64,000 nt of DNA from Niveispirillum cyanobacteriorum. GTDB taxonomy: Bacteria; Pseudomonadota; Alphaproteobacteria; Azospirillales; Azospirillaceae. The translations under genes were made by a program, and so were the position numbers. Below, one piece after another: positions 39,009 through 55,613 of this stretch. Below the pieces are notes generated by a model, which searched no databases, had not been told where the DNA came from, and saw only the letters and a program-made list of their open reading frames with translations. Position 1 is the stretch's first letter, and each line of letters starts with the position of its first letter. The stretch is from positions 806,001 through 870,000 of the forward strand of contig NZ_CP025613.1 of assembly GCF_002868735.1 (NCBI RefSeq), given 5' to 3'.

Positions 39009-39980
39009 ATGACAAAGGTGGATACACTTTGGAATACACACGTATACTATACAGCAGTCCCACAATGTAAAATCACAAGAAAAGTCATGACCAGCATCAT
39101 ATCGGGTTATTTGAACCATCAACCGGTTCCCACCGACAGAAAGCAGAATGCACTTACTAAGAGATTTATTTTTCCAGTATTAACCGATCTGCACGATATG
39201 TTAATGGATTTACGTCGGGAATTGGACCCCGTCTTGGCAAGACAGTACCCGCTTAACAAAAATATCCCATATCCTGTAGGGCGATGTGAGGAAATTACTA
39301 CAGCCGTCCGTCAGCACCTCCTGAAACGGATAGCAACACCCACCACCCGCGCTGAACGGGCCTTGCATGCGTTCCGCCGTCAAGGTGGCTTAATCAGACC
39401 CGTTTGGGGCGCATTGCGGGAGCGCTATTTCCAGAACGCCACTCAGATTGGAAGTCTGTATGTCGACGCTGCAAATGATACAGTGAACATCACAAAGCCA
39501 AAAGTTGAGATAATGCCCATGACCGAAAGTGGGCTGGAAGCCATTCGGGATATTTCTCACTTCTGCGATATCGCAAAACTTTACTGGAAGGCAGAGACCT
39601 ATGCCAATCTGGTGGCCCCCAGCCTGGCACCCCTGCTGCCAATGGCGGTACTCAACAAAGTATCAGAACCTCAGCTTCTATCCGCGTGCCCATACATGAC
39701 TGCTCTCGCACTTCATAATCATTTCAGGGATGCGGAAAGTTGGCTGGAGACAGCACCGGCCATGGATATAGCCGCTCAAGCACCGCTTTTGGAGCGGGTG
39801 CCCATTGACTTGCGCCCACGGGCAGGCGCAGACCCAAGGGAACTCGCCATAGATGCATGTCGTGAGGCACGGCGGGAGAAACGCTATCTCGATCCGGAAT
39901 GGAAGCAGGCACTGCTTAAGGATCTGGCCCGCATCAACAGTCCCCGACTGGAAACGGGGGACAAAGTTCAAATGGCTTGA
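39009..39980 (+). CDS. Unrecognised protein of less GC-rich composition
   Basis: I do not recognise this 323-residue protein. It is soluble by eye: there is no signal peptide or long hydrophobic segment. It is rich in Arg/His and predicted helices, such as PTTRAERALHAFRRQGGLIR, ALRERYFQNATQIGSLYVDA and DPEWKQALLKDLARINSP. Its first third uses many AT-ending codons, unlike its neighbours. A second start is possible at 39087 (MTSIISGYL). It ends 5 bp from the convergent lipoprotein gene and is divergent from the siderophore receptor. Composition suggests transfer or a lowly expressed accessory gene. Confidence 0.6.
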   Translation: MTKVDTLWNTHVYYTAVPQCKITRKVMTSIISGYLNHQPVPTDRKQNALTKRFIFPVLTDLHDMLMDLRRELDPVLARQYPLNKNIPYPVGRCEEITTAVRQHLLKRIATPTTRAERALHAFRRQGGLIRPVWGALRERYFQNATQIGSLYVDAANDTVNITKPKVEIMPMTESGLEAIRDISHFCDIAKLYWKAETYANLVAPSLAPLLPMAVLNKVSEPQLLSACPYMTALALHNHFRDAESWLETAPAMDIAAQAPLLERVPIDLRPRAGADPRELAIDACREARREKRYLDPEWKQALLKDLARINSPRLETGDKVQMA

Positions 39981-40871: not shown

Positions 40872-41831
40872 ATGAAACGCGCACGCAAGCGGGTATTGGT
40901 GGCTGGTGGTGCCGGTTTCCTGGGTTCACACCTGTGCGAACGACTGCTGAATGACGGACACGAGGTGCTGTGCGTCGATAATTTCTTCACCGGCTCGCGG
41001 GAGAATATCCGGCACCTGATCCCAAACCCCTATTTTGAGGTGATGCGCCACGACGTCACCTTCCCGCTCTTTGTAGAGGTGGATGAGATCTACAATCTCG
41101 CCTGCCCCGCATCGCCCATCCATTATCAGTTCAACCCAGTGCAGACGACGAAGACCTCTGTCCATGGGGCCATCAACATGCTGGGACTGGCCAAGCGAAC
41201 CAAGGCCAAAATATTCCAGGCCAGCACGTCGGAGGTTTACGGCGACCCGACAGTGCACCCGCAGACCGAGGATTATCGCGGCAACGTGAACCCAATCGGG
41301 CCCCGCGCCTGCTATGACGAGGGAAAGCGCTGCGCGGAAACCCTGTTCTTCGACTATCATCGCCAGAATGGCGTCAATATCCGCGTGGCCCGCATCTTCA
41401 ACACCTATGGCCCACGCATGCACCCCAATGACGGGCGCGTGGTGTCGAACTTCATCGTGCAGGCCCTGCAGGGCAATCCGATCACCATCTATGGCGAGGG
41501 CACCCAGACCCGGTCGTTCTGCTATGTCGATGATCTGATCGAGGGTTTCATCCGTCTGATGGCCGCCCCGGATGAGGTGACCGGCCCCATCAATATCGGC
41601 AATCCCGGCGAATACACGATCCGTCAGCTGGCGGAGAATGTAGTGCGGTTAACGGGCGCCAAATCGGAGTTCGTCTGGAAACCCCTGCCGCAGGACGACC
41701 CGCTGCAGCGCTGCCCCGACATCACCAAGGCCAAAACCCTCCTAAACTGGCAGCCGACCATCCATCTGGAGGAAGGCTTGACGCGCACCATCGCCTATTT
41801 CGCCGATCAACTGGGCGTGTCCCTGGCCTGA
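40872..41831 (+). CDS. UDP-glucuronate decarboxylase (UDP-xylose synthase)
   Basis: This 319-residue short-chain dehydrogenase/reductase-type enzyme converts UDP-glucuronate to UDP-xylose with bound NAD. It has the Rossmann motif [11 protein letters not shown], the family stretch [13 protein letters not shown], the substrate region [20 protein letters not shown], catalytic Ser/Thr in STSEVYG and YDEGK (Tyr-x3-Lys), followed by [21 protein letters not shown] good site, AAGGAT, precedes the ATG. It heads a rightward cluster with two OGT-like glycosyltransferases, 33 bp upstream of the first, and could supply their sugar donor or a capsule pathway. Confidence 0.88.
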
Positions 41832-41864
41832 TCATCCGTCCCGTCAACTGACGCGTTGCAAGCC

Positions 41865-43829
41865 ATGGATATCTACGAGCTGTTTGCCCTCGCCCACGCC
41901 ACCGAAGCGGAGCATGGCAAGGGAGCCGCCATCCGTGCCTATCAGGACTGGCTGGCGGCCAATGAAGGGCACCCTGCCATACATGCGGCCTGGTTCAATC
42001 TCGGCTCACTGCAATTGAGCAGCGATGACGGCAATGGCGCGCTCTATTCCTTTAATGAGGCGGTGCGTGTGCGGCCGGATTTCACGCCCGCCGTCATATC
42101 GCTGGGGTCCGCCCTGGAACGGGTGGGCCAGATCGATATGGCCATCCAATATTGGGGCCATGCCGTCGGCAACCTGTCGGGCGTTTCTTCCGACACGATC
42201 AATTACAAATTGACAGTGTTGAAGCAGCTGGCCCGCGTGCGGATGAGCCGGCAGGAAATGTCCGAGGCGGAGGAGGTGCTGCGCCTGTCACTGGATGTGG
42301 CGCCGGCACGGCGGGAGGAAATGCAGCACTGGGCCAATGTCCGTCAACGGCAATGCAAATGGCCGGTGCTGCAATCTTTCGGCCCCGTGACACCGGAAAA
42401 GATCATGGCCACGCTGGCCCCTCTGACCCTGGCCTATTTCACAGACGATCCCATACTCAGCCTTGCCAATGCCTACTCGCACAATCGGTTGGATGTGGGG
42501 TGGCCCGATGAGTTCAAGACCAGCGCCGATTTCGCCCATCGTCGCCGCGCGCCCGACGGGCGCCTGCGTATCGGGTATCTCTCGTCCGACCTGCGCAACC
42601 ATGCCATCGGCCACCTGACGGCGGAAATGTTCGGGCTTCATGACCGCTCCCGTGTCGAGGTGACGGCATTCTATTGCGGCGTGCGCATCGAGGATGCAGT
42701 GATGCATCGCATCCGGGGCAGTGTCGATCACTGGCACGATATTACGGGCCTGGATGATGCCGCCGCCGCAGCCCTGGTGGAAGAGTGCGGGATCGACATC
42801 CTGGTCGATATCAATGGCAATACGCGGGATGCCCGCACACGGATGCTGGGCCGCCGCCCCGCCCCGGTCATCGTCAACTGGCTGGGCTATCCCGGCACAA
42901 TGGCCAGCCCCTATCACCACTATATCATCGCCGATCAGGTGATCATTCCGCCCGGATCAGAGAAATATTACAGCGAGAAAGTGGAACGGGTCCCCTGCTA
43001 CCAGCCTAATGACCGCTACCGGGTCATCTCGCCGGAACCGCAGTCGCGCGCCCAGCACGGATTGCCGGAACAGGGCGTGGTCTTCTGCTGTTTCAATGGC
43101 CAGCAGAAGATGACCCGTTTCAATATGGCCCGCTGGCTGGACATCCTGAGGCAGGTCGACGGTTCCGTGCTCTGGCTGCTGCGCGGCGGAGATGAAGGTG
43201 ATAACCGCCTGCGGGAAGAAGCGGCCAAGGCCGGTATCGACCCTGCCCGTCTGATCTTCGCCCCCTATGCCGCCAATGCCGATCATCTGGCGCGCTATGT
43301 CCTGGCCGACCTGTTCCTGGACAGCAGCCCCTATGGCGCGCATACGACGGCGTCGGATGCGCTGTGGATGGGGGTGCCCGTCCTGACTCTGCCCGGTCGG
43401 GGCTTCGCATCCCGTGTCTGCGCCTCACTGGTGACGGCTGCCGGCACGCCGGAATTCGTGTGTGACAGCCCGGCAGCCTATGTGGAGATGGCCGTGCGGT
43501 TGGGACGTGACCCGGCAACCCTGGCCGCTGCCCGGCAGAAGCTTCTGGACCTGCGCCACACGTCCGTTCTGTTCAACACCAATGGTTTCGCCCGTGCGAT
43601 GGAGGATGCCTTCGACCGCATGTGGGCGGAGTGGGAGGCCGGTGCCCTGCCCGTCCCCGATCTGACCAATTTGGACCTCTATCTGGAAATCGGCAGCGCC
43701 ATGGACCATGATGCCGAGGAATTCGGCTTCCTGCCGGATTACGAAGAACGGTATCGCAAGGCCCTGGCCAAGCGGCACGCCCTGACACGGGTTCCGCGCG
43801 ATGTCAGACTGTGGACGCAGCCGGCATGA
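41865..43829 (+). CDS. TPR-containing O-GlcNAc-transferase-like (SPINDLY-type) glycosyltransferase
   Basis: This cytosolic protein of about 654 residues belongs to the GT41 group, which attaches sugars to Ser/Thr of proteins. Residues 1-150 form TPR-like helices (AAWFNLGSLQLSSDDGNGAL; EAVRVRPDFTPAVISLGSAL). The catalytic half begins with RIGYLSSDLRNHAIGHLTAE, matching the OGT His region. It continues with NWLGYPGTMAS, VVFCCFNGQQKMTRFN with the UDP-binding Lys, and LFLDSSPYGAHTTASDALWM, which keeps the HTT donor-binding motif. A TTG three codons earlier (41856) is a weaker start. It overlaps the next OGT-like gene by 4 nt. The protein target is unknown; the adjacent Thr-rich repeat protein is a candidate. 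Confidence 0.87.
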   Translation: MDIYELFALAHATEAEHGKGAAIRAYQDWLAANEGHPAIHAAWFNLGSLQLSSDDGNGALYSFNEAVRVRPDFTPAVISLGSALERVGQIDMAIQYWGHAVGNLSGVSSDTINYKLTVLKQLARVRMSRQEMSEAEEVLRLSLDVAPARREEMQHWANVRQRQCKWPVLQSFGPVTPEKIMATLAPLTLAYFTDDPILSLANAYSHNRLDVGWPDEFKTSADFAHRRRAPDGRLRIGYLSSDLRNHAIGHLTAEMFGLHDRSRVEVTAFYCGVRIEDAVMHRIRGSVDHWHDITGLDDAAAAALVEECGIDILVDINGNTRDARTRMLGRRPAPVIVNWLGYPGTMASPYHHYIIADQVIIPPGSEKYYSEKVERVPCYQPNDRYRVISPEPQSRAQHGLPEQGVVFCCFNGQQKMTRFNMARWLDILRQVDGSVLWLLRGGDEGDNRLREEAAKAGIDPARLIFAPYAANADHLARYVLADLFLDSSPYGAHTTASDALWMGVPVLTLPGRGFASRVCASLVTAAGTPEFVCDSPAAYVEMAVRLGRDPATLAAARQKLLDLRHTSVLFNTNGFARAMEDAFDRMWAEWEAGALPVPDLTNLDLYLEIGSAMDHDAEEFGFLPDYEERYRKALAKRHALTRVPRDVRLWTQPA

Positions 43830-45682
43830 CGGCACCCTCAGCTGTCGATCTCCTGATCGCCGATCTGCGGGGTGCGCCGCCGGGCCTGTCACCGGTTGAT
43901 CCGGCAACGCGCAGCCGCTGGCGTCATCTGTTGTCGGGCTTGCCGGCGATTGAGGCGATGGCCGCTGTTGCGCAGGCTGACCCCATGCCCAACCGGCATT
44001 GGGCCGCCGACATGCTGCATGAATGGCTCGTTTCACCAGGAAATGGCGGTGTCGACAGCGCGCCCATCTGGTTCAATCTCGGCGTCGAACTGGCCGCACG
44101 GGGGGATTCCGGCTCGGCAGCAACCGCTTACACCAACGCCCTTCTGTTGCAGCCGTCCTTGTGGCAGGCCACCATTAACCTTGCGGGCATCCGCGAGGCG
44201 GCGGGCGATACGCAAACAGCCCTGGCGACGATTAACACCGCGTTGCAGGATGACGAAGCGCGAACCAAGCTGCTGAACCAGCGGGGCCGGCTGCTGGAGA
44301 AGCTGTCCCGCCTGGATGAGGCGGAAACGACTTATTATCGCAGCCTGCTGACTAAACCCGATCAGCATTATGTGGTCCAGCATTGGGCCTTCGTCCGGCA
44401 GAACATGTGCGCCTGGCCTCTGTTTGGACCGGGCATACCTGGCTTGACGGTTGAACAGCTGCGCGACCAGTGCGGCGGGCTTGCCACGCTGGCATTGGCC
44501 GACAATGTGGCCGAACAGCGGCGGACGGTGCAATCCTGGCTGGACCGCCGACCGGTGCCCGTGACGCAGCCCTTGGCACCTGCCACCGGCTATGCCCATC
44601 GCCGGCTGCGTATCGGCTATATGTCGTCGGATTTCTGCCGCCATGCCATGACTTTCCTGGTGGCCGAACTGTTGGAACGGCACGACCGTGACCGGTTCGA
44701 GATCTATGGTTATTGCTCCAGCCCGGATGATGGCAGCGACATGCGGGCTCGCGTGCTGGCGGCCCTGGATCATTGCCGCCTTGTCCGCGACAAGGATCAT
44801 GAAACGGTCGCCCGCCAGATCCGGGCCGATGAGATCGATATCCTGATCGACCTCAACGGTATTACTGTGGGCGAACGGCTGGACGTGCTGCGCTGGAAAC
44901 CGGCGCCAGTACAGATGACCTATCTCGGCTTCATCGGACCGGTACCGATCCCAGAGCTGGATTACATTCTGACCGACGAATATGCGATTCCGCCTTCCAT
45001 CGCGGATCAATATTGGCCCCGACCGCTCTATCTCCCCGGCGTCTATCAGGCCAATGATGGCCGGCCCGTGCCGATGGCCGATATCAGCCGTGCGGATGAA
45101 GGACTGCCGCAGGACCGGTTCATCTTCTGCTGCTTCTGCGGCTCCTACAAGATATCCGAAGCCATGTTCGCCCTGTGGATGCGCATCCTGGCCCGCACAC
45201 GCGACAGCGTCCTCTGGCTGCTGGAGGATAATCGCTGGGTGGTGGGCAATCTGCGGGCACAGGCGGTACGGCACGGGATCGATCCCGACCGGCTGATCTT
45301 CTCCCCCCGTGCCATGCCCGACCGTTACCGCGCCCGCATGGCGCTGGCCGACCTGTTCCTGGATACGACCCCTTATAATGCCGGCACTGTGGCCAGCGAC
45401 GCGCTGCGTGCTGGCCTGCCGATCCTGACCCTGTCACGGGAAACCTTCGCCAGCCGGATGGCTGGCGCCCTGTTGCGGGCCATGGACCTGCCGGAACTCA
45501 TCACCACTAAAGATGATGATTACGTCGACCGGGCCGTGGCACTGTACAACACACCGGACCTTTACCGGGCGATCCGCAGCCGGACCACGCCCGAACACTG
45601 GCAGGCCACCTTGGGCGACACGCATACATTCACGCGCGGATTTGAGGCGACGCTGGACCGCGTCGCCATCCGCGCGGACTGA
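43826..45682 (+). CDS. Second TPR/OGT-like glycosyltransferase, divergent donor site
   Basis: This protein of about 618 residues is a paralogue of the preceding gene and overlaps its stop (ATGA). TPR-like helices (PIWFNLGVELAARGDSGSAA) are followed by a catalytic half starting RIGYMSSDFCRHAMTFLVAE. Compared with the first copy, WLGYPGT has become YLGFIGP and GAHTTASDALW has become NAGTVASDALR, so the His and first Thr of the donor motif are lost. The Lys in FCCFCGSYKIS remains. It may use another donor, need a partner, or be inactive. A GTG at 43811 is an alternative start. It converges on the secretion genes with no gap. Confidence 0.83.
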   Translation: MTAPSAVDLLIADLRGAPPGLSPVDPATRSRWRHLLSGLPAIEAMAAVAQADPMPNRHWAADMLHEWLVSPGNGGVDSAPIWFNLGVELAARGDSGSAATAYTNALLLQPSLWQATINLAGIREAAGDTQTALATINTALQDDEARTKLLNQRGRLLEKLSRLDEAETTYYRSLLTKPDQHYVVQHWAFVRQNMCAWPLFGPGIPGLTVEQLRDQCGGLATLALADNVAEQRRTVQSWLDRRPVPVTQPLAPATGYAHRRLRIGYMSSDFCRHAMTFLVAELLERHDRDRFEIYGYCSSPDDGSDMRARVLAALDHCRLVRDKDHETVARQIRADEIDILIDLNGITVGERLDVLRWKPAPVQMTYLGFIGPVPIPELDYILTDEYAIPPSIADQYWPRPLYLPGVYQANDGRPVPMADISRADEGLPQDRFIFCCFCGSYKISEAMFALWMRILARTRDSVLWLLEDNRWVVGNLRAQAVRHGIDPDRLIFSPRAMPDRYRARMALADLFLDTTPYNAGTVASDALRAGLPILTLSRETFASRMAGALLRAMDLPELITTKDDDYVDRAVALYNTPDLYRAIRSRTTPEHWQATLGDTHTFTRGFEATLDRVAIRAD

Positions 45683-47128
45683 TCAGGGTTCGTTCAGGGA
45701 CTCGTCCAGGCCGCGCAGCACGGGATAAAGGAAATAGGACATCAGGCTGCGACTGCCGACCTTGATTTCGGCTTGCACCACCATGCCCGCCGTCAGAACC
45801 GCACCCTGCGGCATGCGCTCCAGCGTCAGGCTGTCAAGATCGACCTGCGCCGTATGCACATAGGCACCGGCAACCGTCGGCGTGCGCAGCGCGTCCAGCG
45901 GCTCCGCTGTACCCGGCACAAAGCTCTGCCGGGAGACTGACCGCAGCCGACCCTTCAACATGCCATGGCGCTGGAACGGGAACGGTGCAACCTTCACCTC
46001 AACCGGATCACCCGCCTTAACATAGCCGATGTCACCGGACTGGATCACCACTTCGGCGATCAGCGGCGTATCCAGCGCCACCAGGGTGATCAGCGCTTCG
46101 GCTTCCCGGGCGATGGAACCGGGCGACAGGCGGGCCACCTCCTGCACAACGGCGTCGGCGGGCGCCGTCATCTCGACCAGATCGTTGCGACGGACGGCCT
46201 TAGCCAGATCCTCATCGACCTGGGAGGCCTGACGGCGGGTTTCCACAAGCTGTTCTAGAAGCTGGCGCTGCCAGTCATCCACGAAATTCCGCCGCTCCGC
46301 CCGCTTTGCGGCCAGATCGGCCTGCAATTCCTTGATACGATTGGTGGTACCCTGAAGCGAGCGCTCAGTCTCCAGACGCTGGGCCTGCGCCTCCAGAAGC
46401 TGCAGCCGCGACCCCGTCTGCGCCTTGAAAAGCTGGGAGCGCAGATTCTCCACATCGCGATAGACCACCATCTGGGCCGTCAGCGACTTTTCATCATCCT
46501 GAGCGGCCCGCAGCGAGGCATCAAGACTGACAATGCCGCTATCCAGACTGTCCAGATGCGACCGGTATTGGGTCTGGCGCTGCTGGAACAGCCGGGCCTG
46601 CAACGCCATGTCCGGATCGTCACTACTGGCCATTGTCTCGGGCAAGGTCTTACCCGCAGCCTCCGCCTCCAACCGCCGCAACTGCGCGAACAAGGCGCGC
46701 TGCTGCGCCGACAGGGCACTGCGGTCGGCTAGCGTGAAGGTCGGGTCCAACGTGGCGAGCAGCTGTCCCTTGGTCACACGTTCACCGGGCTGGACCAGGA
46801 GCTGGCGCACGATGGAACGTTCCAGCGGCTGCATCACGATGGGCGGTACCTGCGTGGCCAGGCGGCCTGTGGACACCACGACACGGTCCATCTGAACGAA
46901 GCACGCAATGATGGCCATCAGTGCCAGCATCCCCGCCGCAATCAGGTGGGGCGCCCCCAGAATGGGTGGCGGCGGTTCGCGGACGATCATCTCCAGTTCC
47001 GACTGGAACTCGATGGCTTCAGGAGCCACGTGCAGGCGCGGGGCCGGCGTCCCGTAGAACCGCCGCCAGCGCTCACGCAGCGCCTGGAAGGGCCGCATCA
47101 ATGGATGTGCTGTGTCTGGGTTTGCCAT
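45683..47128 (-). CDS. Type I secretion periplasmic adaptor (HlyD family)
   Basis: This 481-residue protein bridges an inner-membrane ABC exporter to a TolC-like channel. It has a cytoplasmic N-terminus and one membrane helix near residues 60-80 (HLIAAGMLALMAIIACFVQM). A lipoyl half-motif comes next (VVSTGRLATQVPPIVMQPLE; VKPG-like LLVQPGERVTKGQLLATLD), then a long coiled coil at about 130-310. The second lipoyl half is MTAPADAVVQEVA, followed by a C-terminal beta-barrel (AGDPVEVKVAPFPFQRHGML). It overlaps the exporter gene by 31 nt. No TolC gene is present in the window. Confidence 0.9.
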   Translation of the reverse strand: MANPDTAHPLMRPFQALRERWRRFYGTPAPRLHVAPEAIEFQSELEMIVREPPPPILGAPHLIAAGMLALMAIIACFVQMDRVVVSTGRLATQVPPIVMQPLERSIVRQLLVQPGERVTKGQLLATLDPTFTLADRSALSAQQRALFAQLRRLEAEAAGKTLPETMASSDDPDMALQARLFQQRQTQYRSHLDSLDSGIVSLDASLRAAQDDEKSLTAQMVVYRDVENLRSQLFKAQTGSRLQLLEAQAQRLETERSLQGTTNRIKELQADLAAKRAERRNFVDDWQRQLLEQLVETRRQASQVDEDLAKAVRRNDLVEMTAPADAVVQEVARLSPGSIAREAEALITLVALDTPLIAEVVIQSGDIGYVKAGDPVEVKVAPFPFQRHGMLKGRLRSVSRQSFVPGTAEPLDALRTPTVAGAYVHTAQVDLDSLTLERMPQGAVLTAGMVVQAEIKVGSRSLMSYFLYPVLRGLDESLNEP

Positions 47129-49227
47129 AGGTGCCGATAAATGTCGCAGCGTTGCAGCAGGATGGAGTGGGGGGCGCAGTCAACCAACTTGCCCTGTTCC
47201 AGAACAATGATCTTGTCAGCCTTAACCAAGGACGACAGCCGGTGCGAGACGATGATCATGGTACGTCCCTCGGCGATGCGCGTCAGGTTACGCTGAACAA
47301 TGGCCTCGCTGTCCGGGTCAAGCGCGCTGGTCGCCTCATCAAAGATCAGAAGACGCGGCTGTGTCACCAGGGCACGGGCGATAGCGATACGCTGGCGCTG
47401 GCCGCCGGAGAAGTTGGAAGCATTCTCCTCGACCATCGTGTCATAGGACAAAGGCAGGCGGTCGATGAATTCGTCAGCGCCCGCCATCTGGGCCGCCTGA
47501 AGGATTTCATGGAGCGGCGCGTCGGGACGCGCAGCCGCGATATTCTCACGGATGGTGCCGCGGAACAGCAGATTGTCCTGCAGCACGACGCCGATGGACT
47601 TGCGCAGATGGTTCAGTTCGATATGGCGCAGATCGACACCATTCAGCTTGATCAGACCTTCTTGCGGGATGTGGATGGACTGGATCAGTCGGGTGATCGT
47701 GGTCTTGCCTGACCCCGACCGACCGACGATACCGACAACCTGCCCCTCCTCGATATCGAAGGACACGCGGTCAAGCGCCGGAGTGGCACCGGGAGCATAA
47801 CGGAAGGTCACATCCTCGAAGAACATCTTGCCCGTGATATATGGACGGGACTGACGGGAATGACCACTGCGCTCCGGCTCGGCATTCATCACCTCGCCCA
47901 GCATACGCACCGACAGATCCGCCTCCTGGTACTCGTTGATCAAGGCCACGATCTGAAGCAGCGGGCCTGTGACGCGACCCGACAGCATGTTGAAGGCGAT
48001 CAGCGCGCCCAGTGTCATGGCGCCGTCGAAGACCTGAACGGCACCGATGGCAAGCACGCTGATCTGCATCAGCTTTTCCAGACCGCCGGTCAGCACGGTC
48101 CCCAGGATGCTGATGCCGCCAACCTTGGCATGGCGCCGGACGGCCAGGGCCACTTTACTGTCCCATGCCTGCTGCCGGTTCTCTTCAAGCACCAGTGACT
48201 TGACGGCGCGCATGGAATGCAGTGTCTCGACCAGATGCGCCTGACGGCTGGCCTCAGTCTCGTACAACCGTCCCAGATGCAGCCGGAAGATCGGCACCAT
48301 GAAGCCGATGATCGCCGCGATGACGACCGAGAAGGCCAGCACCACAGCAGTCAACAGGCCGCTGTAAAGGAACAGCAGCACCAGCAGCACCGGCAATGTG
48401 ACAGTATCCAGGAAAACCTGAAACAGCCTGCCGGTCAGGAAATGGCGCAGCTTCTCCGTCTGCTGCATATGCCGGGTCAGGATACCCGCACTGTTGCGCT
48501 CGAAGAAATGCAGCGGCAGCGAAAGAAGGTGCCGGAAAGTGCGGCTGGTCAGCTTGGCATCGATCTTGTTCGATGCCAGCAACATAAGATTCTGGCGGAC
48601 ATAGCCGAAGAACCCGTCAAAGACTGTCAGCAATATATAAAGCAGGACGATGACGAACAGCGTCTGGTAACTATGGTGGGTAATCACCTTGTCGACCAGC
48701 ACCTGGAACATCATCGGCAGCGCCAAGCCGATCAGATTGGCCATGATGGCCGCGATGGCGACGCCACGGAAGAATTTAGCGTTGCGCAGGATCTCCGGCA
48801 GGAACCAGCGGAAGCCGAAGGGCTGGTTCTCATCCATCAGGGCCCAGGCACGCTTGGCCAGGATGATCTCGCCCGTCCAGGTGGAGGTGAATTCCTCCTC
48901 GGACAGAAACCGGACGCCCTCAGCCTCACGCGTGGGGTCCAGTACGGCAGCCGACATCCGGCCCTCCACCTCCATCGCATAGGCAAGAATGACCCAGCTG
49001 CCATCCTTCCGGATCGCAATTGCCGGGTAAGCACTGCCTAGGTGACAGGCGGACTTCCAGCTGACGCGTGTCTTACGGCCCTTAAGGCCGGCGCCATGCA
49101 TGGATTTCAGTACGGCCGGTACGGGATCGCCCGGCACATCGGGCGGCAACTCATCCGGATGAAGTTGCACGCCATGGTGCAGCGCCACCAGAAAAAGACA
49201 CCTCAGAACCGTCATGTAAGGGGACAA
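47098..49227 (-). CDS. Type I secretion ABC exporter (HlyB-like, degenerate C39 domain)
   Basis: This protein of about 709 residues exports unfolded proteins. The N-terminal 130 residues form a C39-like domain (VLRCLFLVALHHGVQLHPDE) in which the catalytic Cys position appears to be Thr, so it should bind and not cleave cargo. The membrane domain spans about 155-440. The ATPase has Walker A GRSGSGKTT, signature NFSGGQRQRIAIARAL, Walker B LLIFDEATSALD and the switch His in IVSHRL. The start is uncertain: TTG at 49227 or ATG at 49215. It is divergent from the octapeptide-repeat protein, which is its most obvious cargo by position. Confidence 0.9.
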   Translation of the reverse strand: MSPYMTVLRCLFLVALHHGVQLHPDELPPDVPGDPVPAVLKSMHGAGLKGRKTRVSWKSACHLGSAYPAIAIRKDGSWVILAYAMEVEGRMSAAVLDPTREAEGVRFLSEEEFTSTWTGEIILAKRAWALMDENQPFGFRWFLPEILRNAKFFRGVAIAAIMANLIGLALPMMFQVLVDKVITHHSYQTLFVIVLLYILLTVFDGFFGYVRQNLMLLASNKIDAKLTSRTFRHLLSLPLHFFERNSAGILTRHMQQTEKLRHFLTGRLFQVFLDTVTLPVLLVLLFLYSGLLTAVVLAFSVVIAAIIGFMVPIFRLHLGRLYETEASRQAHLVETLHSMRAVKSLVLEENRQQAWDSKVALAVRRHAKVGGISILGTVLTGGLEKLMQISVLAIGAVQVFDGAMTLGALIAFNMLSGRVTGPLLQIVALINEYQEADLSVRMLGEVMNAEPERSGHSRQSRPYITGKMFFEDVTFRYAPGATPALDRVSFDIEEGQVVGIVGRSGSGKTTITRLIQSIHIPQEGLIKLNGVDLRHIELNHLRKSIGVVLQDNLLFRGTIRENIAAARPDAPLHEILQAAQMAGADEFIDRLPLSYDTMVEENASNFSGGQRQRIAIARALVTQPRLLIFDEATSALDPDSEAIVQRNLTRIAEGRTMIIVSHRLSSLVKADKIIVLEQGKLVDCAPHSILLQRCDIYRHLWQTQTQHIH

Positions 49228-49700: not shown

Positions 49701-52700
49701 ATGTCGATCCTCTCGTTTCTCTCGACTACTCAGATCGGCCAGCTGAGCACGACAGCAATCGGCAACTGGACGACTTCAGACCTTCGTCAACTCTCGTCAA
49801 CACAGACCAGTGCGCTGTCGACCACCCAAATCGGGGCTCTGACAACGACGCAGATGGCGGGGCTGCTCACAACGCAGCTCTCGGGACTTGCAACGACAAC
49901 CGTTGCCGCGCTGACCAGCACCCAGCTGAATGCAATCTCGACGACCAACCTGACGGGTTTGAGCACGACGCAGTTCACTGCGCTCACCACAACTCAGGTT
50001 TCCGGCCTCAGCACCACGCTGGTTCGCAGCCTCAACAGCACCTACATCGCCAATCTCTCGACGACGCAGATCGGCGGATTGAGCACCACCCAGATCACCA
50101 CGCTGAGCACCGCCCAGGTGCAGTCGCTGGAAACCACCGACGTCGCGGCTCTGTCCACAACCCAGATCGTGGCGCTGACCACGGCCCAGATCGTGGCTCT
50201 GGCTAGCACGCAGTTTGCGGCCATTGAGACCACCGATCTGGCGGCCCTGACCACGACCCAGTTCCGGGTGCTGACCACCACTCAGATCGCCGGGCTGTCG
50301 ACCACCCAGGTCGGTGTCCTGACGACGACCCAGATCGCCTCGCTGACCACCACCCAGGTGCGTGGCATCGAGACCACCGATCTCGCCGCCCTCTCCACCA
50401 CCCAGATCGGCGGCCTGACCGCCGCCCAGATCACGGCCCTGACCACCACCCAGGTCGGCGGGTTCGAGACCACTGATCTCGCGGTGTTGAGCAGCACCCA
50501 GCTGAATGCCCTGTCGAGCGCACAGGTCGGCAGCCTGACCACGACCCAGGTCAATGCCCTGTCCTCCACCCAGATCGGTCAGCTGGGCACCGCCCAGGTC
50601 CGTGGCCTCAACAGCACCCAGGTGGCGTCTCTCTCCACCACCCAGATCGGCGGATTGAGCACCACCCAGATCGCGTCGCTGACCAGCACCCAGATCAGCG
50701 GGCTGGAAACCACGGACATCGCGGCCCTGTCCACGACCCAGATCGTGGCGCTGACCACGGCCCAGATCGTGTCTCTGACCACGACACAGTTCGCGGCTAT
50801 TGAGGTCACCGATCTGGCGACCCTGACCACGACCCAGTTCCGTGCCCTCACGACGACCCAGATCGCTGGGCTGAACACCACCCAGGTCGGTGTCCTGACG
50901 ACGACCCAGATCGCCTCGCTGACCACCACCCAGGTGCGTGGCATCGAGACCACCGATCTCGCCGCCCTCTCCACCACCCAGATCGGCGGCCTGACCGCCG
51001 CCCAGATCACGGCCCTGACCACCACCCAGGTCGGCGGGTTCGAGACCACTGATCTCGCGGTGTTGAGCAGCACCCAGCTGAATGCCCTGTCGAGCGCACA
51101 GGTCGGCAGCCTGACCACGACCCAGGTCAATGCCCTGTCCTCCACCCAGATCGGTCAGCTGGGCACCGCCCAGGTCCGTGGCCTCAACAGCACCCAGGTG
51201 GCGTCTCTCTCCACCACCCAGATCGGTGGCCTCTCCACCACTCAGATCGCGTCGCTGACCACCACCCAGATCAGCGGGCTGGAAACCACGGACATCGCGA
51301 CCCTGTCCACGACCCAGATCGTGGCCCTGACCACGGCCCAGATCGTGTCTCTGAATAGCACGCAGTTCGCGGCCATTGAGACCACCGATCTGGCGGCCCT
51401 GACCACGACCCAGTTCCGTGCCCTCACGACGACCCAGATCGCTGGCCTGAACACCACCCAGGTCGGTGTCCTGACGACGACCCAGATCGCCTCGCTGACC
51501 ACCACCCAGGTGCGTGGCATCGAGACCACCGATCTCGCCGCCCTCTCCACCACCCAGATCGGCGGCCTGACCGCCGCCCAGATCACGGCCCTGACCACCA
51601 CCCAGGTCGGCGGGTTCGAAACCACTGATCTCGCGGTGTTGAGCAGCACCCAGCTGAATGCCCTGTCGAGCGCACAGGTCGGCAGCCTCACCACGACCCA
51701 GGTCAATGCCCTGTCCTCCACCCAGATCGGTCAGCTGGGCACCGCCCAGGTCCGTGGCCTCAACAGCACCCAGGTGGCGTCTCTTTCCACCACCCAGATC
51801 GGTGGCCTCTCCACGACCCAGATCGCGTCGCTGACCACCACCCAGATCAGCGGGCTGGAAACCACGGACATCGCGACCCTGTCCACGACCCAGATCGTGG
51901 CGCTGACCACGGCCCAGATCGTGTCTCTGAACAGCACGCAGTTTGCGGCTATCGAGACCACCGATCTGGCGGCCCTGACCACGACCCAGTTCCGTGCCCT
52001 GACAACGACCCAGATCGCCGGGCTGAACACCACCCAGGTCGGTGTCCTGACGACGACCCAGATCGCCTCGCTGACCACCACCCAGGTGCGTGGCATCGAG
52101 ACCACCGATCTGGCCGCCCTCTCCACCACCCAGATCGGCGGCCTGACCGCCGCCCAGATCACGGCCCTGACCACCACCCAGGTCGGCGGGTTCGAGACCA
52201 CTGATCTGGCGGTGTTGAGCAGCACCCAGCTGAATGCCCTGTCGAGCGCACAGGTCGGCAGCCTGACCACGACCCAGGTCAATGCCCTGTCCTCCACCCA
52301 GATCGGTCAGCTGGGCACCGCCCAGGTCCGTGGCCTCAACAGCACCCAGGTGGCGTCTCTCTCCACCACCCAGATCGGTGGCCTCTCCACCACCCAGATC
52401 GCGTCGCTGACCACCACCCAGATCAGCGGGCTGGAAACCACGGACATCGCGACCCTGTCCACGACCCAGATCGTGGCCCTGACCACGGCCCAGATCGTGT
52501 CTCTGAACAGCACGCAGTTCGCGGCTATCGAGACCACCGATCTGGCGGCCCTGACCACGACCCAGTTCCGTGCCCTCACGACGACCCAGATCGCCGGGCT
52601 GAACACCACCCAGGTCGGTGTCCTGACGACGACCCAGATCGCCTCGCTGACCACCACCCAGGTGCGTGGCATCGAGACCACCGATCTCGCCGCCCTCTCC

Positions 52701-55613
52701 ACCACCCAGATCGGCGGCCTGACCGCCGCCCAGATCACGGCCCTGACCACCACCCAGGTCGGCGGGTTCGAGACCACTGATCTCGCGGTGTTGAGCAGCA
52801 CCCAGCTGAATGCCCTGTCGAGCGCACAGGTCGGCAGCCTGACCACGACCCAGGTCAATGCCCTGTCCTCCACCCAAATCGGTCAGCTGGGCACCGCCCA
52901 GGTCCGTGGCCTCAACAGCACCCAGGTGGCGTCTCTTTCCACCACCCAGATCGGCGGATTGAGCACCACCCAGATCGCGTCGCTGACCAGCACCCAGATC
53001 AGCGGGCTGGAAACCACGGACATCGCGGCCCTGTCCACGACCCAGATCGTGGCCCTGACCACGGCCCAGATCGTGTCTCTGAACAGCACGCAGTTCGCGG
53101 CCATTGAGACCACCGATCTGGCGGCCCTGACCACGACCCAGTTCCGTGCCCTCACGACCACCCAGATCGCCGGGCTGAACACCACCCAGGTCGGTGTCCT
53201 GACGACGACCCAGATCGCCTCGCTGACCACCACCCAGGTGCGTGGTATCGAGACCACCGATCTCGCCGCCCTCTCCACCACCCAGATCGGCGGCCTGACC
53301 GCCGCCCAGATCACGGCCCTGACCACCACTCAGGTCGGCGGGTTCGAGACCACTGATCTGGCGGTGTTGAGCAGCACCCAGCTGAATGCCCTGTCGAGCG
53401 CACAGGTCGGCAGCCTGACCACGACCCAGGTCAATGCCCTGTCCTCCACCCAGATCGGTCAGCTGGGCACCGCCCAGGTCCGTGGCCTCAACAGCACCCA
53501 GGTGGCGTCTCTCTCCACCACCCAGATCGGTGGCCTCTCCACGACCCAGATCGCGTCGCTGACCAGCACCCAGATCAGCGGGCTGGAAACCACGGACATC
53601 GCGGCCCTGTCCACGACCCAGATCGTGGCCCTGACCACGGCCCAGATCGTGTCTCTGGCCAGCACGCAGTTCGCGGCCATTGAGACCACTGATCTGGCGG
53701 CCCTGACCACGACCCAGTTCCGTGCCCTCACGACCACCCAGATCGCTGGCCTGAACACCACCCAGGTCGGTGTCCTGACGACGACCCAGATCGCCTCGCT
53801 GACCACCACCCAGGTGCGTGGCATCGAGACCACCGATCTGGCCGCCCTCTCCACCACCCAGATCGGCGGCCTGACCGCCGCCCAGATCACGGCCCTGACC
53901 ACCACCCAGGTCGGCGGGTTCGAGACCACTGATCTCGCGGTGTTGAGCAGCACCCAGCTGAATGCCCTGTCGAGCGCACAGGTCGGCAGCCTGACCACGA
54001 CCCAGGTCAATGCCCTGTCCTCCACCCAAATCGGTCAGCTGGGCACCGCCCAGGTCCGTGGCCTCAACAGCACCCAGGTGGCGTCTCTCTCCACCACCCA
54101 GATCGGTGGCCTCTCCACCACCCAGATCGCGTCGCTGACCAGCACCCAGATCAGCGGGCTGGAAACCACGGACATCGCGGCCCTGTCCACGACCCAGATC
54201 GTGGCCCTGACCACGGCCCAGATCGTGTCTCTGGCTAGCACGCAGTTCGCGGCCATTGAGACCACCGATCTGGCGGCCCTGACCACGACCCAGTTCCGTG
54301 CCCTGACAACGACCCAGATCGCCGGGCTGAACACCACCCAGGTCGGTGTCCTGACGACGACCCAGATCGCCTCGCTGACCACCACCCAGGTGCGTGGCAT
54401 CGAGACCACCGATCTGGCCGCCCTCTCCACCACCCAGATCGGCGCTCTGACCACTACCCAGATTGTGGCCCTGACTACGACACAGGTCGGCGGGTTCGAG
54501 ACCACTGATCTGGCGGTGTTGAGCAGCACCCAGCTGAATGTCCTGTCGAGCGCACAGGTCGGCAGCCTGACCACGACCCAGGTCAATGCCCTGTCCTCCA
54601 CCCAGATCGGTCAGCTGGGCACCGCCCAGGTCCGTGGCCTCAACAGCACCCAGGTGGCGTCTCTCTCCACCACCCAGATCGGTGGCCTCTCCACGACCCA
54701 GATCGCGTCGCTGACCACCACCCAGATCAGCGGACTGGAAACCACGGACATCGAGGCCCTGTCCACGACCCAGATCGTGGCCCTGACCACGACACAGATC
54801 GTGGCTCTGGCCAGCACGCAGTTCGCGGCCATTGAGACCACCGATCTGGCGGCCCTGACCACGACCCAGTTCCGTGCCCTCACGACGACCCAGATCGCTG
54901 GCCTGAACACCACCCAGGTCGGTGTCCTGACGACGACCCAGATCGCCTCGCTGACCACCACCCAGGTGCGTGGCATCGAGACCACCGATCTGGCCGCCCT
55001 CTCCACCACCCAAATCGGCGGCTTGACAACCACCCAGATTGCGGCCCTGACCACGACACAGGTGGTTGGTATGGAAGGAACTGACATCGCAGTACTGACC
55101 AGCACGCAGCTTACGGGGCTGACAGCCACTCTGGTTCAGAGCTTGACGACGACCCAGGTCGCCGCCTTCACCTACACCCAGGTCGGCCAGTTCAGCACAA
55201 CCCAGATCCGGGCGCTGGAAACCAGCGACATCGCGGTTCTGGGAACGGCACAGGCCACCATTCTGAACAGCACGCAGCTGGCGGCGTTGACCACAACCCA
55301 GGTCGCCAACTTCAGCACCACGGCAGTAGCTCAGCTGACGGGTGGCGGACAGTTCCCGGTCTTCACCTCCACCTTCGTGTCGGGTTTGACCACAACGCAA
55401 CTGGGTGTGTTGAGCTCGGCGCAGATCAGTGCCTTCACGACCACTAGTATCGTGGGGCTGAGCACGACGCAGATTTCGTCGCTGTCCACCACCCAGGTCG
55501 GTGGTCTGGAGACGACGGATATCGCGGCGATGAACACCACGCAGATCGCTGGTTTCACCTCCACGCAGGTGTCGTCGATGACCTCCGCTCAAATCAACGC
55601 CTTGTTCATGTAA
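49701..55613 (+). CDS. Giant Thr/Ser-rich octapeptide-repeat protein, probable type I secreted surface protein
   Basis: This 1970-residue protein is built almost wholly from 8-residue units of consensus [ST]TTQ[IV]xxL, roughly 240 in all. Every few units the Gln becomes Asp and the first residue Glu (ETTDLAAL). Hydrophobic positions 5 and 8 are kept throughout, as in a solenoid. There is no Sec signal, RTX nonapeptide, enzymatic domain or transmembrane segment. Units run from residue 7 (LSTTQIGQL) to the C-terminus (TTQIAGFTSTQVSSMTSAQI). Nine blocks of 24 units repeat exactly every 192 residues. The divergent type I exporter and nearby OGT-like enzymes suggest secretion and O-glycosylation. 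An adhesive or matrix function is inferred, and whether the fold is beta-solenoid or short-helix is open. Confidence 0.8.
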   Translation: MSILSFLSTTQIGQLSTTAIGNWTTSDLRQLSSTQTSALSTTQIGALTTTQMAGLLTTQLSGLATTTVAALTSTQLNAISTTNLTGLSTTQFTALTTTQVSGLSTTLVRSLNSTYIANLSTTQIGGLSTTQITTLSTAQVQSLETTDVAALSTTQIVALTTAQIVALASTQFAAIETTDLAALTTTQFRVLTTTQIAGLSTTQVGVLTTTQIASLTTTQVRGIETTDLAALSTTQIGGLTAAQITALTTTQVGGFETTDLAVLSSTQLNALSSAQVGSLTTTQVNALSSTQIGQLGTAQVRGLNSTQVASLSTTQIGGLSTTQIASLTSTQISGLETTDIAALSTTQIVALTTAQIVSLTTTQFAAIEVTDLATLTTTQFRALTTTQIAGLNTTQVGVLTTTQIASLTTTQVRGIETTDLAALSTTQIGGLTAAQITALTTTQVGGFETTDLAVLSSTQLNALSSAQVGSLTTTQVNALSSTQIGQLGTAQVRGLNSTQVASLSTTQIGGLSTTQIASLTTTQISGLETTDIATLSTTQIVALTTAQIVSLNSTQFAAIETTDLAALTTTQFRALTTTQIAGLNTTQVGVLTTTQIASLTTTQVRGIETTDLAALSTTQIGGLTAAQITALTTTQVGGFETTDLAVLSSTQLNALSSAQVGSLTTTQVNALSSTQIGQLGTAQVRGLNSTQVASLSTTQIGGLSTTQIASLTTTQISGLETTDIATLSTTQIVALTTAQIVSLNSTQFAAIETTDLAALTTTQFRALTTTQIAGLNTTQVGVLTTTQIASLTTTQVRGIETTDLAALSTTQIGGLTAAQITALTTTQVGGFETTDLAVLSSTQLNALSSAQVGSLTTTQVNALSSTQIGQLGTAQVRGLNSTQVASLSTTQIGGLSTTQIASLTTTQISGLETTDIATLSTTQIVALTTAQIVSLNSTQFAAIETTDLAALTTTQFRALTTTQIAGLNTTQVGVLTTTQIASLTTTQVRGIETTDLAALSTTQIGGLTAAQITALTTTQVGGFETTDLAVLSSTQLNALSSAQVGSLTTTQVNALSSTQIGQLGTAQVRGLNSTQVASLSTTQIGGLSTTQIASLTSTQISGLETTDIAALSTTQIVALTTAQIVSLNSTQFAAIETTDLAALTTTQFRALTTTQIAGLNTTQVGVLTTTQIASLTTTQVRGIETTDLAALSTTQIGGLTAAQITALTTTQVGGFETTDLAVLSSTQLNALSSAQVGSLTTTQVNALSSTQIGQLGTAQVRGLNSTQVASLSTTQIGGLSTTQIASLTSTQISGLETTDIAALSTTQIVALTTAQIVSLASTQFAAIETTDLAALTTTQFRALTTTQIAGLNTTQVGVLTTTQIASLTTTQVRGIETTDLAALSTTQIGGLTAAQITALTTTQVGGFETTDLAVLSSTQLNALSSAQVGSLTTTQVNALSSTQIGQLGTAQVRGLNSTQVASLSTTQIGGLSTTQIASLTSTQISGLETTDIAALSTTQIVALTTAQIVSLASTQFAAIETTDLAALTTTQFRALTTTQIAGLNTTQVGVLTTTQIASLTTTQVRGIETTDLAALSTTQIGALTTTQIVALTTTQVGGFETTDLAVLSSTQLNVLSSAQVGSLTTTQVNALSSTQIGQLGTAQVRGLNSTQVASLSTTQIGGLSTTQIASLTTTQISGLETTDIEALSTTQIVALTTTQIVALASTQFAAIETTDLAALTTTQFRALTTTQIAGLNTTQVGVLTTTQIASLTTTQVRGIETTDLAALSTTQIGGLTTTQIAALTTTQVVGMEGTDIAVLTSTQLTGLTATLVQSLTTTQVAAFTYTQVGQFSTTQIRALETSDIAVLGTAQATILNSTQLAALTTTQVANFSTTAVAQLTGGGQFPVFTSTFVSGLTTTQLGVLSSAQISAFTTTSIVGLSTTQISSLSTTQVGGLETTDIAAMNTTQIAGFTSTQVSSMTSAQINALFM
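50004..55187 (+). repeat. Nine 576-bp tandem super-repeats made of 24-bp units
   Basis: A landmark beginning CAGCTGGGCACC falls at 50580 and then every 576 bp through 54612 without a single indel; its degenerate equivalent is at 55188. Each block is 24 octapeptide codon sets. Asp-bearing units sit at fixed slots 5, 9, 15 and 19 counted from the NSTQV unit. Central copies are nearly identical, while the first half of copy one and the end of copy nine have drifted. Confidence 0.93.

Follow-up and report, generated by a model that had tools for sequence, protein, structure and literature searches.

What do bacterial homologues of the O-GlcNAc transferase OGT modify, and with which sugar? The question is raised by the window analysed here, a stretch of 64,000 nucleotides of Niveispirillum cyanobacteriorum (contig NZ_CP025613.1, positions 806,001 to 870,000), in which the genes of two GT41 glycosyltransferases, OGT1 and OGT2, share four bases (ATGA) between the stop of the former and the start of the latter (ATG 43826). 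A preliminary description of this DNA had dealt with the altered donor-binding motif of OGT2 and had not connected the pair with the gene that starts 4 kb downstream of OGT2 and encodes a giant, threonine-rich protein of ALTTAQ octapeptide repeats. The strongest evidence on the role of the pair is the linkage of the two enzyme clades to this single rare repeat family, which held on loci fetched later. Because both groups of enzymes sit beside a repeat gene, and often beside its pump, in many genera, the pair probably glycosylates the repeat protein before export, and we estimate at roughly 70% the probability that OGT1 and OGT2 are active cytosolic GT41 O-glycosyltransferases dedicated to the neighbouring ALTTAQ-repeat protein. 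Such a conserved genomic partner gives bacterial OGT homologues candidate substrates and makes their role directly testable, also in Cereibacter sphaeroides 2.4.1, a strain widely used in laboratories.

Linkage of two GT41 clades to ALTTAQ-repeat genes

GT41 sequences were collected from relatives (99 relatives were screened, then 59 genomes), from a class-wide sample and from plasmids. Eight of 90 open reading frames (ORFs), which were fragments, partial or non-GT41, were left out before the trees and the residue table were made; two of these eight, along with L153, come from loci near ALTTAQ genes. In a tree of 107 sequences, OGT1 and OGT2 each formed a monophyletic group of 23 members (support 1.0), and both clades stayed intact when 18 further GT41 sequences of the class were added. 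The node uniting them with XcOGT of Xanthomonas campestris was unsure (support 0.904, falling to 0.601 with the 18 added). ALTTAQ genes were detected by counting repeat motifs in six-frame ORFs on stretches of up to 20 kb, and one was present on the same fetched stretch for 42 of the 46 clade members; three others were cut by contig ends (OGT1 and OGT2 of G003, OGT1 of G005) and one was without. None of 20 other GT41 loci, read over 14-26 kb each, had such a gene (at most one motif match). These controls were chosen, not random, and comprised 10 previously fetched stretches and 10 plasmid matches of lower rank, of which L239 and L240 match records behind loci already among the 51 other GT41 sequences tabulated below; L069 (genome G029) was not counted.

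The repeat family is rare, being found in five of 385 class genomes at E ≤ 1e-6, and GT41 was found in 52 of 142. Within Niveispirillum (g1), OGT2 orthologues and ALTTAQ matches at E ≤ 1e-9 occur in the same eight genomes, and G001, G004 and G007 have neither. The repeat gene stands beside OGT2 in six g2 genomes, in G032, G036 and Beijerinckia, and beside OGT1 in G015, G056, G259 and G444; G448, G016 and G446 were added later as further linked loci. When plasmid loci were fetched after the idea had formed, all 11 carried the repeat gene, in Alpha- and Gammaproteobacteria: five with OGT2 (Pseudoroseomonas cervicalis, Rhodovastum atsumiense, Cereibacter sphaeroides 2.4.1 and two Pseudomonas) and six with OGT1, all Rhizobiaceae. 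This sample took five of 15 records with OGT2 at 44% or more (one of 11 in the case of Cereibacter) and six of 10 OGT1 records of Rhizobium, Shinella and Pseudorhizobium; ten of the 11 loci were picked on enzyme similarity with the repeat unseen, and the repeat match of R. lusitanum was known beforehand. Overall, the linkage spans at least ten genera and two classes, and its counts are quoted without a p value because the loci share ancestry and transfer.

Several observations weigh against a dedicated role of the enzymes. The counts are not independent, as descent or transfer relates the loci to one another. Linkage is no proof of catalysis or of an enzyme-substrate pair, and no glycosylation has been observed. 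The OGT2-clade gene of G029 has no ALTTAQ gene on its stretch (L069) and no ALTTAQ match elsewhere in its genome, and in G015 (L153) two GT41 genes outside both clades stand beside the ALTTAQ-OGT1 pair. The link is also one-way: ALTTAQ genes without GT41 on the stretches read occur on contig C1 of the genome analysed here (G000), as extra copies in G011, G023, G031, G259, G444, G446 and G447, and as the genes of G098 and G198, and two plasmid loci chosen by the repeat alone (Rhizobium CB3060 and R. grahamii) had no GT41 within 16 kb. Genes of a type I secretion system (T1SS) are not beside every pair. Finally, a proposed site rule, by which OGT1 loci select Ser or Thr at repeat position 3, failed out of sample and was dropped: six later Rhizobiaceae OGT1 loci gave 0.21-0.44 in the adjacent repeat ORFs. 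Compared by lineage, loci with OGT1 differed from OGT2-only loci at p = 0.13 and from unlinked ones at p = 0.005.

Another candidate rule, with a TT dyad as the mark of linked proteins, broke down at the loci of Rhodovastum, Cereibacter and Pseudomonas, where TT was 0.01-0.10. Several unlinked ALTTAQ proteins are poorer in Thr, and since the unlinked f93 copies are not, sequence alone is no predictor of linkage; the enzymes might act in trans on unlinked copies. In the class sample the top tier with an OGT2 alignment was reached by two of 385 genomes only (G000 and G008), and 18 second-tier class loci belonged to neither clade and had no repeat motif within their 4.4-4.6 kb. Both families are present in the species Caulobacter vibrioides.

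The donor pocket and activity of OGT2

OGT2 matched PF13844 (GT41) in a profile search at 228.7 bits (cut-off 25) and TPR_1 at 30.6 bits (cut-off 27.8), with the tetratricopeptide repeats (TPRs) N-terminal of the GT41 domain. Its AlphaFold model (predicted local distance difference test score, pLDDT, 91.7; predicted template modelling score 0.87) has the predicted GT-B fold with N-terminal TPRs and, compared with solved structures, gave Z scores of 46.3 for XcOGT, 40 for TtOGT, 39 for Arabidopsis SPINDLY (SPY) and 37 for human OGT. The equivalog of HMW1C-type N-glycosyltransferases (NGT), NF049992, had no match in OGT2 at E ≤ 0.01 in an NCBIfam profile search and scored 21.6 bits in OGT1 against a cut-off of 1000.

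Residues are numbered below as in human OGT, by subtracting 10 from the 7yea chain numbers in the alignments. This offset presumes the human positions of residues such as K842 (K442 in OGT2 itself), and we take K842, H558, D554 and D925 to be the catalytic or nucleotide-binding residues. Our residue table comprised 20 OGT2 sequences (that of the window included), 17 OGT1 and 51 others. The changes noted in the preliminary description were recovered in these alignments: where OGT1 has AHTTASDALW and NWLGYPGT, OGT2 has AGTVASDALR and TYLGFIGP, corresponding to H920G, T922V and W928R and to Y655F, P656I and T658P relative to human OGT. OGT2 also differs from human OGT by K898P, H901Y, Q839G and T560M, which were outside the list given there, as were C917Y and a hydrophobic residue at 560, which OGT1 and OGT2 have in common in kind.

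In an alignment of OGT2 with 12 orthologues that are 45-95% identical to it, the H920 and W928 columns are invariantly Gly and Arg, so these changes are not due to chance. Over the 20 OGT2 sequences, position 920 was Gly in 20, 901 Tyr in 20, 898 Pro in 19 and 928 Arg in 18; position 656 was I11 V6 P2 N1 (non-Pro in 18) and 922 was T9 V7 I4, T922V/I being confined to Niveispirillum. The g6 sequences L034-L036, which lie within the OGT2 clade, have G920 and retain P656 and W928. As judged from these conservation counts, the altered OGT2 motif is the mark of a lineage. OGT1 (n = 17) kept H920 in 17 and had Q839G in 17, K898N in 16, Y917 in 17 and L866 in 17; the six Rhizobiaceae OGT1 have G839, N898, V560 and Y917, and Ser at 921. 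Among the 51 other GT41 sequences, position 920 was H32 G8 T4 I3 A2 S1 L1 and position 560 was T27 V12 I4 L3 G2 M2 F1.

The preliminary description had also suggested that the pair might act as an active plus an accessory subunit, with OGT1 the catalyst and OGT2 non-catalytic. The overlap of the two genes is compatible with such a complex, as is their adjacency in the six Niveispirillum genomes besides G000 in which one fetched stretch holds both (and, as judged by contig remains, in G005 as well) and the absence of H920 and W928 from OGT2. However, all 20 OGT2 sequences retain D554, H558, L653, G654, K842, R904, T921 and D925, and selection on OGT2 is about as strong as on OGT1 (ratio of non-synonymous to synonymous substitution 0.098 and 0.093, G000 versus G010). 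Moreover, 12 repeat-gene loci carry OGT2 without OGT1 on the fetched stretch (six g2 genomes, G036, Beijerinckia, Cereibacter, Rhodovastum and two Pseudomonas). The invariant catalytic positions and the OGT2-only loci make an accessory pseudoenzyme role unlikely, and the division into a catalyst and a non-catalytic subunit we regard as very unlikely. Since D554, H558, K842, R904, T921 and D925 are all kept, OGT2 is probably active, with a remodelled pocket for the sugar, and not a pseudoenzyme. A further explanation, that the GT41 proteins are chaperones or T1SS targeting factors which use their TPRs on the repeat protein, with catalysis secondary, appears very unlikely as well: TPR domains do bind extended peptides, and the cargo is huge and repetitive, but neither clade varies at the tested catalytic positions (K842, H558, D554 and D925 also in 17 of 17 OGT1 and in the six Rhizobiaceae OGT1, where T921 alone is replaced, by Ser), which goes beyond the needs of a scaffold.

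As to the donor, parts of PMC10027727 and PMC9715652 set the triad L866/R904/C917 of human OGT against K689/A731/Y744 of SPY and describe a Tyr at 917 as clashing with the N-acetyl group. According to excerpts of the former, fucose is held by SPY T747 and the pocket for its C6-methyl is formed by V497 and I592; in our own alignment these three correspond to human 920, 560 and 653. The preliminary claim that the changed positions contact the UDP-sugar thus stands for 920 (the fucose-holding T747) and 653 (I592 of the C6 pocket), whereas the contacts named in the excerpts of PMC10027727 include neither 922 nor 928. Its claim of an altered donor site in OGT2 was borne out by the alignments, which make a plain GlcNAc transferase unlikely. 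The same residues did not prove common in active GlcNAc-type bacterial OGTs: G920 occurs in eight of the 51 other GT41 sequences, whatever sugar these eight may transfer, and in neither human OGT nor XcOGT.

The small residue (Cys) that O-GlcNAc transferases have at 917 according to parts of PMC10027727 and PMC9715652 is replaced by Tyr or Phe in 46 of 46 members of both clades, all of which also have a hydrophobic residue at 560. OGT1 and OGT2 share with the O-fucosyltransferase SPINDLY, itself a GT41 enzyme, the Tyr at 917, the small hydrophobic residue at 560 (SPY V497) and, in OGT2, the non-His at 920 (SPY T747). Unlike SPINDLY, whose Ala/Lys are of the guanosine type in excerpts of PMC10027727, they keep R904 (20 of 20 OGT2) and mostly L866, the uridine type; position 866 of OGT2 was L14 V3 F1 A1 I1, with no Lys among the 20. 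Because R904 and Tyr/Phe917 occur throughout, and L866 in all 17 OGT1 and most OGT2, both look like uridine-nucleotide enzymes for a sugar without a bulky N-acetyl group. The hydrophobic residue at 560 would go with a donor sugar that has no hydroxyl at C6, xylose for example, but this C6 argument is a weak one because 22 of the 51 other GT41 sequences are hydrophobic there too; the feature is not specific, which also tells against a dedicated system.

It is in this light that we consider it quite unlikely that both proteins are ordinary O-GlcNAc transferases of intracellular proteins with the repeat gene as a passive neighbour. Against this stand the reported clash of Tyr917 with the N-acetyl group (PMC10027727, PMC9715652, in part) and the linkage to ALTTAQ in at least ten genera of two classes, with none of 20 other GT41 loci linked, although the membership in GT41 would agree with it and although XcOGT, which also has Tyr917, is reported in part of PMC9715652 to O-GlcNAcylate one plant-lysate substrate. 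Excerpts of the same paper describe no O-GlcNAc activity of XcOGT on bacterial lysates or short peptides and none of TtOGT in vitro.

XcOGT (2jlb/2xgs) is the closest solved structure to OGT2 (467 residues aligned, 32% identity). It resembles OGT2 in its TPRs, GT-B fold, R904, Y917 and Y901; unlike OGT2, it keeps H920, P656, T560 and W928, and it lies outside both ALTTAQ-linked clades. Another GT41 protein of the Niveispirillum genome analysed here (L018:8348-10204) is SPINDLY-like, with Arabidopsis SPY as its best solved match (E 3.8e-145) and Ala at 904.

UDP-xylose synthase and donor supply

The gene upstream of OGT1 encodes a putative UDP-xylose synthase (UXS), as its closest solved relatives are entries for UDP-glucuronic acid decarboxylase 1, which we take to be human UXS1; no NCBIfam model stood above its cut-off among the matches listed for its product. 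UXS, OGT1 and OGT2 follow one another in Pseudoroseomonas and at most Niveispirillum loci, UXS adjoining OGT1 in seven of eight Niveispirillum genomes (G009 has a homologue elsewhere) and in Pseudoroseomonas. UXS also adjoins ALTTAQ genes in f93 (G259, G444, G448), and in G259 about 600 bases separate it from a downstream run of ALTTAQ-OGT1-ALTTAQ in the same orientation. G446 has OGT1 and ALTTAQ and no UXS, and the three Niveispirillum genomes without OGT2 still carry UXS (61-81% identity).

The preliminary description had proposed that OGT2 may use another donor such as UDP-xylose. Its altered pocket is in keeping with another donor, whereas the choice of UDP-xylose was weakened: UXS was on none of the 12 OGT2-only stretches (the record edge cuts some of them short), and of the six g2 genomes with OGT2, four (G011, G023, G031, G039) had no UXS at E ≤ 1e-80 and two (G035, G042) had one. 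In f93, UXS stands beside OGT1 or ALTTAQ genes, yet no OGT2 was seen on the stretches read. Thus, in spite of the consecutive gene order and of the hydrophobic residue at the C6-facing position 560, which would suit a pentose (PMC10027727, in part), a specific use by OGT2 of UDP-xylose from the upstream UXS seems unlikely to us. Since UXS tracks some OGT1 loci and four OGT2-carrying genomes are without it, UDP-xylose fits OGT1 better than OGT2, the link being moderate for the former and poor for the latter. UDP-xylose as the donor of every OGT1 was rejected as not general: the six Rhizobiaceae OGT1 loci gave no UXS match within 16 kb, or within 9.7 kb or 4.3 kb on the side where the record ends. 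Three of these stretches (L232, L233, L234) carry glf, for UDP-galactopyranose mutase, which hints at another donor.

The repeat protein, its export and the proposed system

PF20080 matched the first 1000 residues of the repeat protein in 37 stretches (769.8 bits, cut-off 26.4), and its gene contains a tandem array (50080-55061) of 207.6 copies of a 24-bp unit, that is, of eight residues with the consensus TTTQIAAL. The ALTTAQ repeats hold 25% Thr and 10% Ser. A piece of 235 residues was modelled as an alpha-solenoid built from short helices (the best model has a pLDDT of 92.6, the other four 38-89), in which Ser or Thr occupied positions -1, 0 and +1 of the helix starts in 20, 27 and 25 of 29 cases. 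Its best PDB match, mesothelin, was weak (E 5.8e-4, template modelling score 0.41) and only two of five models had a mean pLDDT above 85, so the predicted fold is described as a short-helix solenoid and no more specifically.

Between OGT2 and the repeat gene lie genes for a HlyD-type adaptor and a HlyB-like transporter (Table 1). In Pseudoroseomonas, HlyB, HlyD, UXS, OGT1 and OGT2 stand in a row on one strand; in Cereibacter (plasmid pA) the repeat gene (DQL45_RS23715), annotated as ICE nucleation protein, is followed divergently by OGT2 (DQL45_RS20570), an ABC exporter and HlyD; and in P. asturiensis TolC, HlyD and a T1SS ATPase come after OGT2 on the opposite strand. The g2, Beijerinckia and Rhizobiaceae stretches had no HlyB/HlyD relatives beside the pair beyond distant ABC-ATPase matches, and for this reason the linkage supports T1SS export in some lineages only.

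Table 1. Features of the locus, with positions in the window.
Feature	Position	Strand	Basis and remarks
UDP-glucuronate decarboxylase / UDP-xylose synthase (UXS)	40872..41831	+	closest solved 4gll, 2b69, E 2e-128
OGT1, TPR + GT41 glycosyltransferase	41856..43829	+	first ATG 41865; PF13844 277.3 bits
OGT2, TPR + GT41 glycosyltransferase	43826..45682	+	618 amino acids; PF13844; ATGA overlap with OGT1
YLGFIGP motif of OGT2 (human OGT 652-658)	44921..44941	+	sequence and alignments
GTVASDALR motif of OGT2 (human OGT 920-928)	45383..45409	+	sequence and alignments
HlyD-type T1SS adaptor	45683..47128	-	TIGR01843 292.4 bits, cut-off 208.65
HlyB-like T1SS ABC transporter, weak C39-like N-terminal domain	47098..49227	-	TIGR01846 605.8 bits, under cut-off 725.55; PF03412 19.6, under cut-off 22
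ALTTAQ octapeptide-repeat protein, 1970 amino acids	49701..55613	+	PF20080, 24-bp tandem array; proposed substrate and T1SS cargo

In the mechanism that we propose, OGT1 and OGT2 would add UDP-derived sugars, probably not GlcNAc, to Thr or Ser of the 8-residue repeats, whose pattern is [ST][ST]x[QD][IVL]xx[LF] with Ser/Thr at the helix starts of the model. UXS would most likely supply OGT1, and the changed pocket of OGT2 could mean either a donor different from that of OGT1 or a different site of attack. The glycosylated protein would then be exported through the HlyB/HlyD type I pump and may act as a surface or adhesive layer. Direct support comes from gene linkage, catalytic-residue conservation, pocket changes and predicted folds, from which we infer the action on the repeats, the sugar, the export route and the surface or adhesive role. 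As a whole, an unrecognised O-glycosylation-secretion system is a tentative proposal that is somewhat likelier to need revision than to hold in every part. In it, two GT41 clades would have specialised in decorating an alpha-solenoid of hundreds of 8-residue Thr/Ser repeats, exported by a T1SS, with one or two different small sugars, of which one would be xylose made by a dedicated UXS. If true, bacterial OGT homologues would gain a class of native substrates and GT41 a member that uses UDP-xylose, and a repetitive protein could be densely O-glycosylated with a simple, genetically encoded system.

The proposed system has partial parallels. HMW1C/NGT, too, is according to parts of PMC3012730 and PMC10507012 a cytosolic enzyme of GT41 fold that modifies a secreted adhesin, HMW1, but it attaches N-linked hexoses to Asn and its substrate leaves by two-partner secretion, in contrast to the Thr/Ser repeats and T1SS proposed here. 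The autotransporter heptosyltransferases TibC and AAH, with TibA and AIDA-I, likewise hyperglycosylate a repetitive secreted protein in the cytosol, in TibA on Ser (PMC4358343, in part; the term gt41 is absent from the excerpted text), but from ADP-heptose and with autotransporter export. Among the open-licence PMC papers listed by our searches, we found no paper naming ALTTAQ or PF20080 and none tying GT41 to T1SS cargo.

The Niveispirillum genome analysed here encodes a second ALTTAQ protein (contig C1, L017:8597-13666) of 1689 amino acids, which is poorer in Thr and has no adjoining GT41; its gene adjoins a large sensor kinase-like gene and a GntR-like regulator, both named by eye. The annotation as ICE nucleation protein is carried by the ALTTAQ protein of Cereibacter sphaeroides 2.4.1 (L225:10901-15586), and Caulobacter CCNA_02815-02816 includes a gene of that name in excerpts of PMC10688885, which may belong to the same family. 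Upstream of the cluster, at 39009-39980 of the window, lies an uncharacterised protein conserved in Niveispirillum (47-89% identity) and without a Pfam match above cut-off. GT41 genes on plasmids of Collimonas and Burkholderia glumae (L241, L245) are near YadA-like adhesin genes. In Azospirillum TSA2s and B510 (L240, L247) an ABC exporter, HlyD and a calcium-binding protein are encoded near a different GT41, and on account of these loci the pairing of GT41 with T1SS may extend beyond ALTTAQ.

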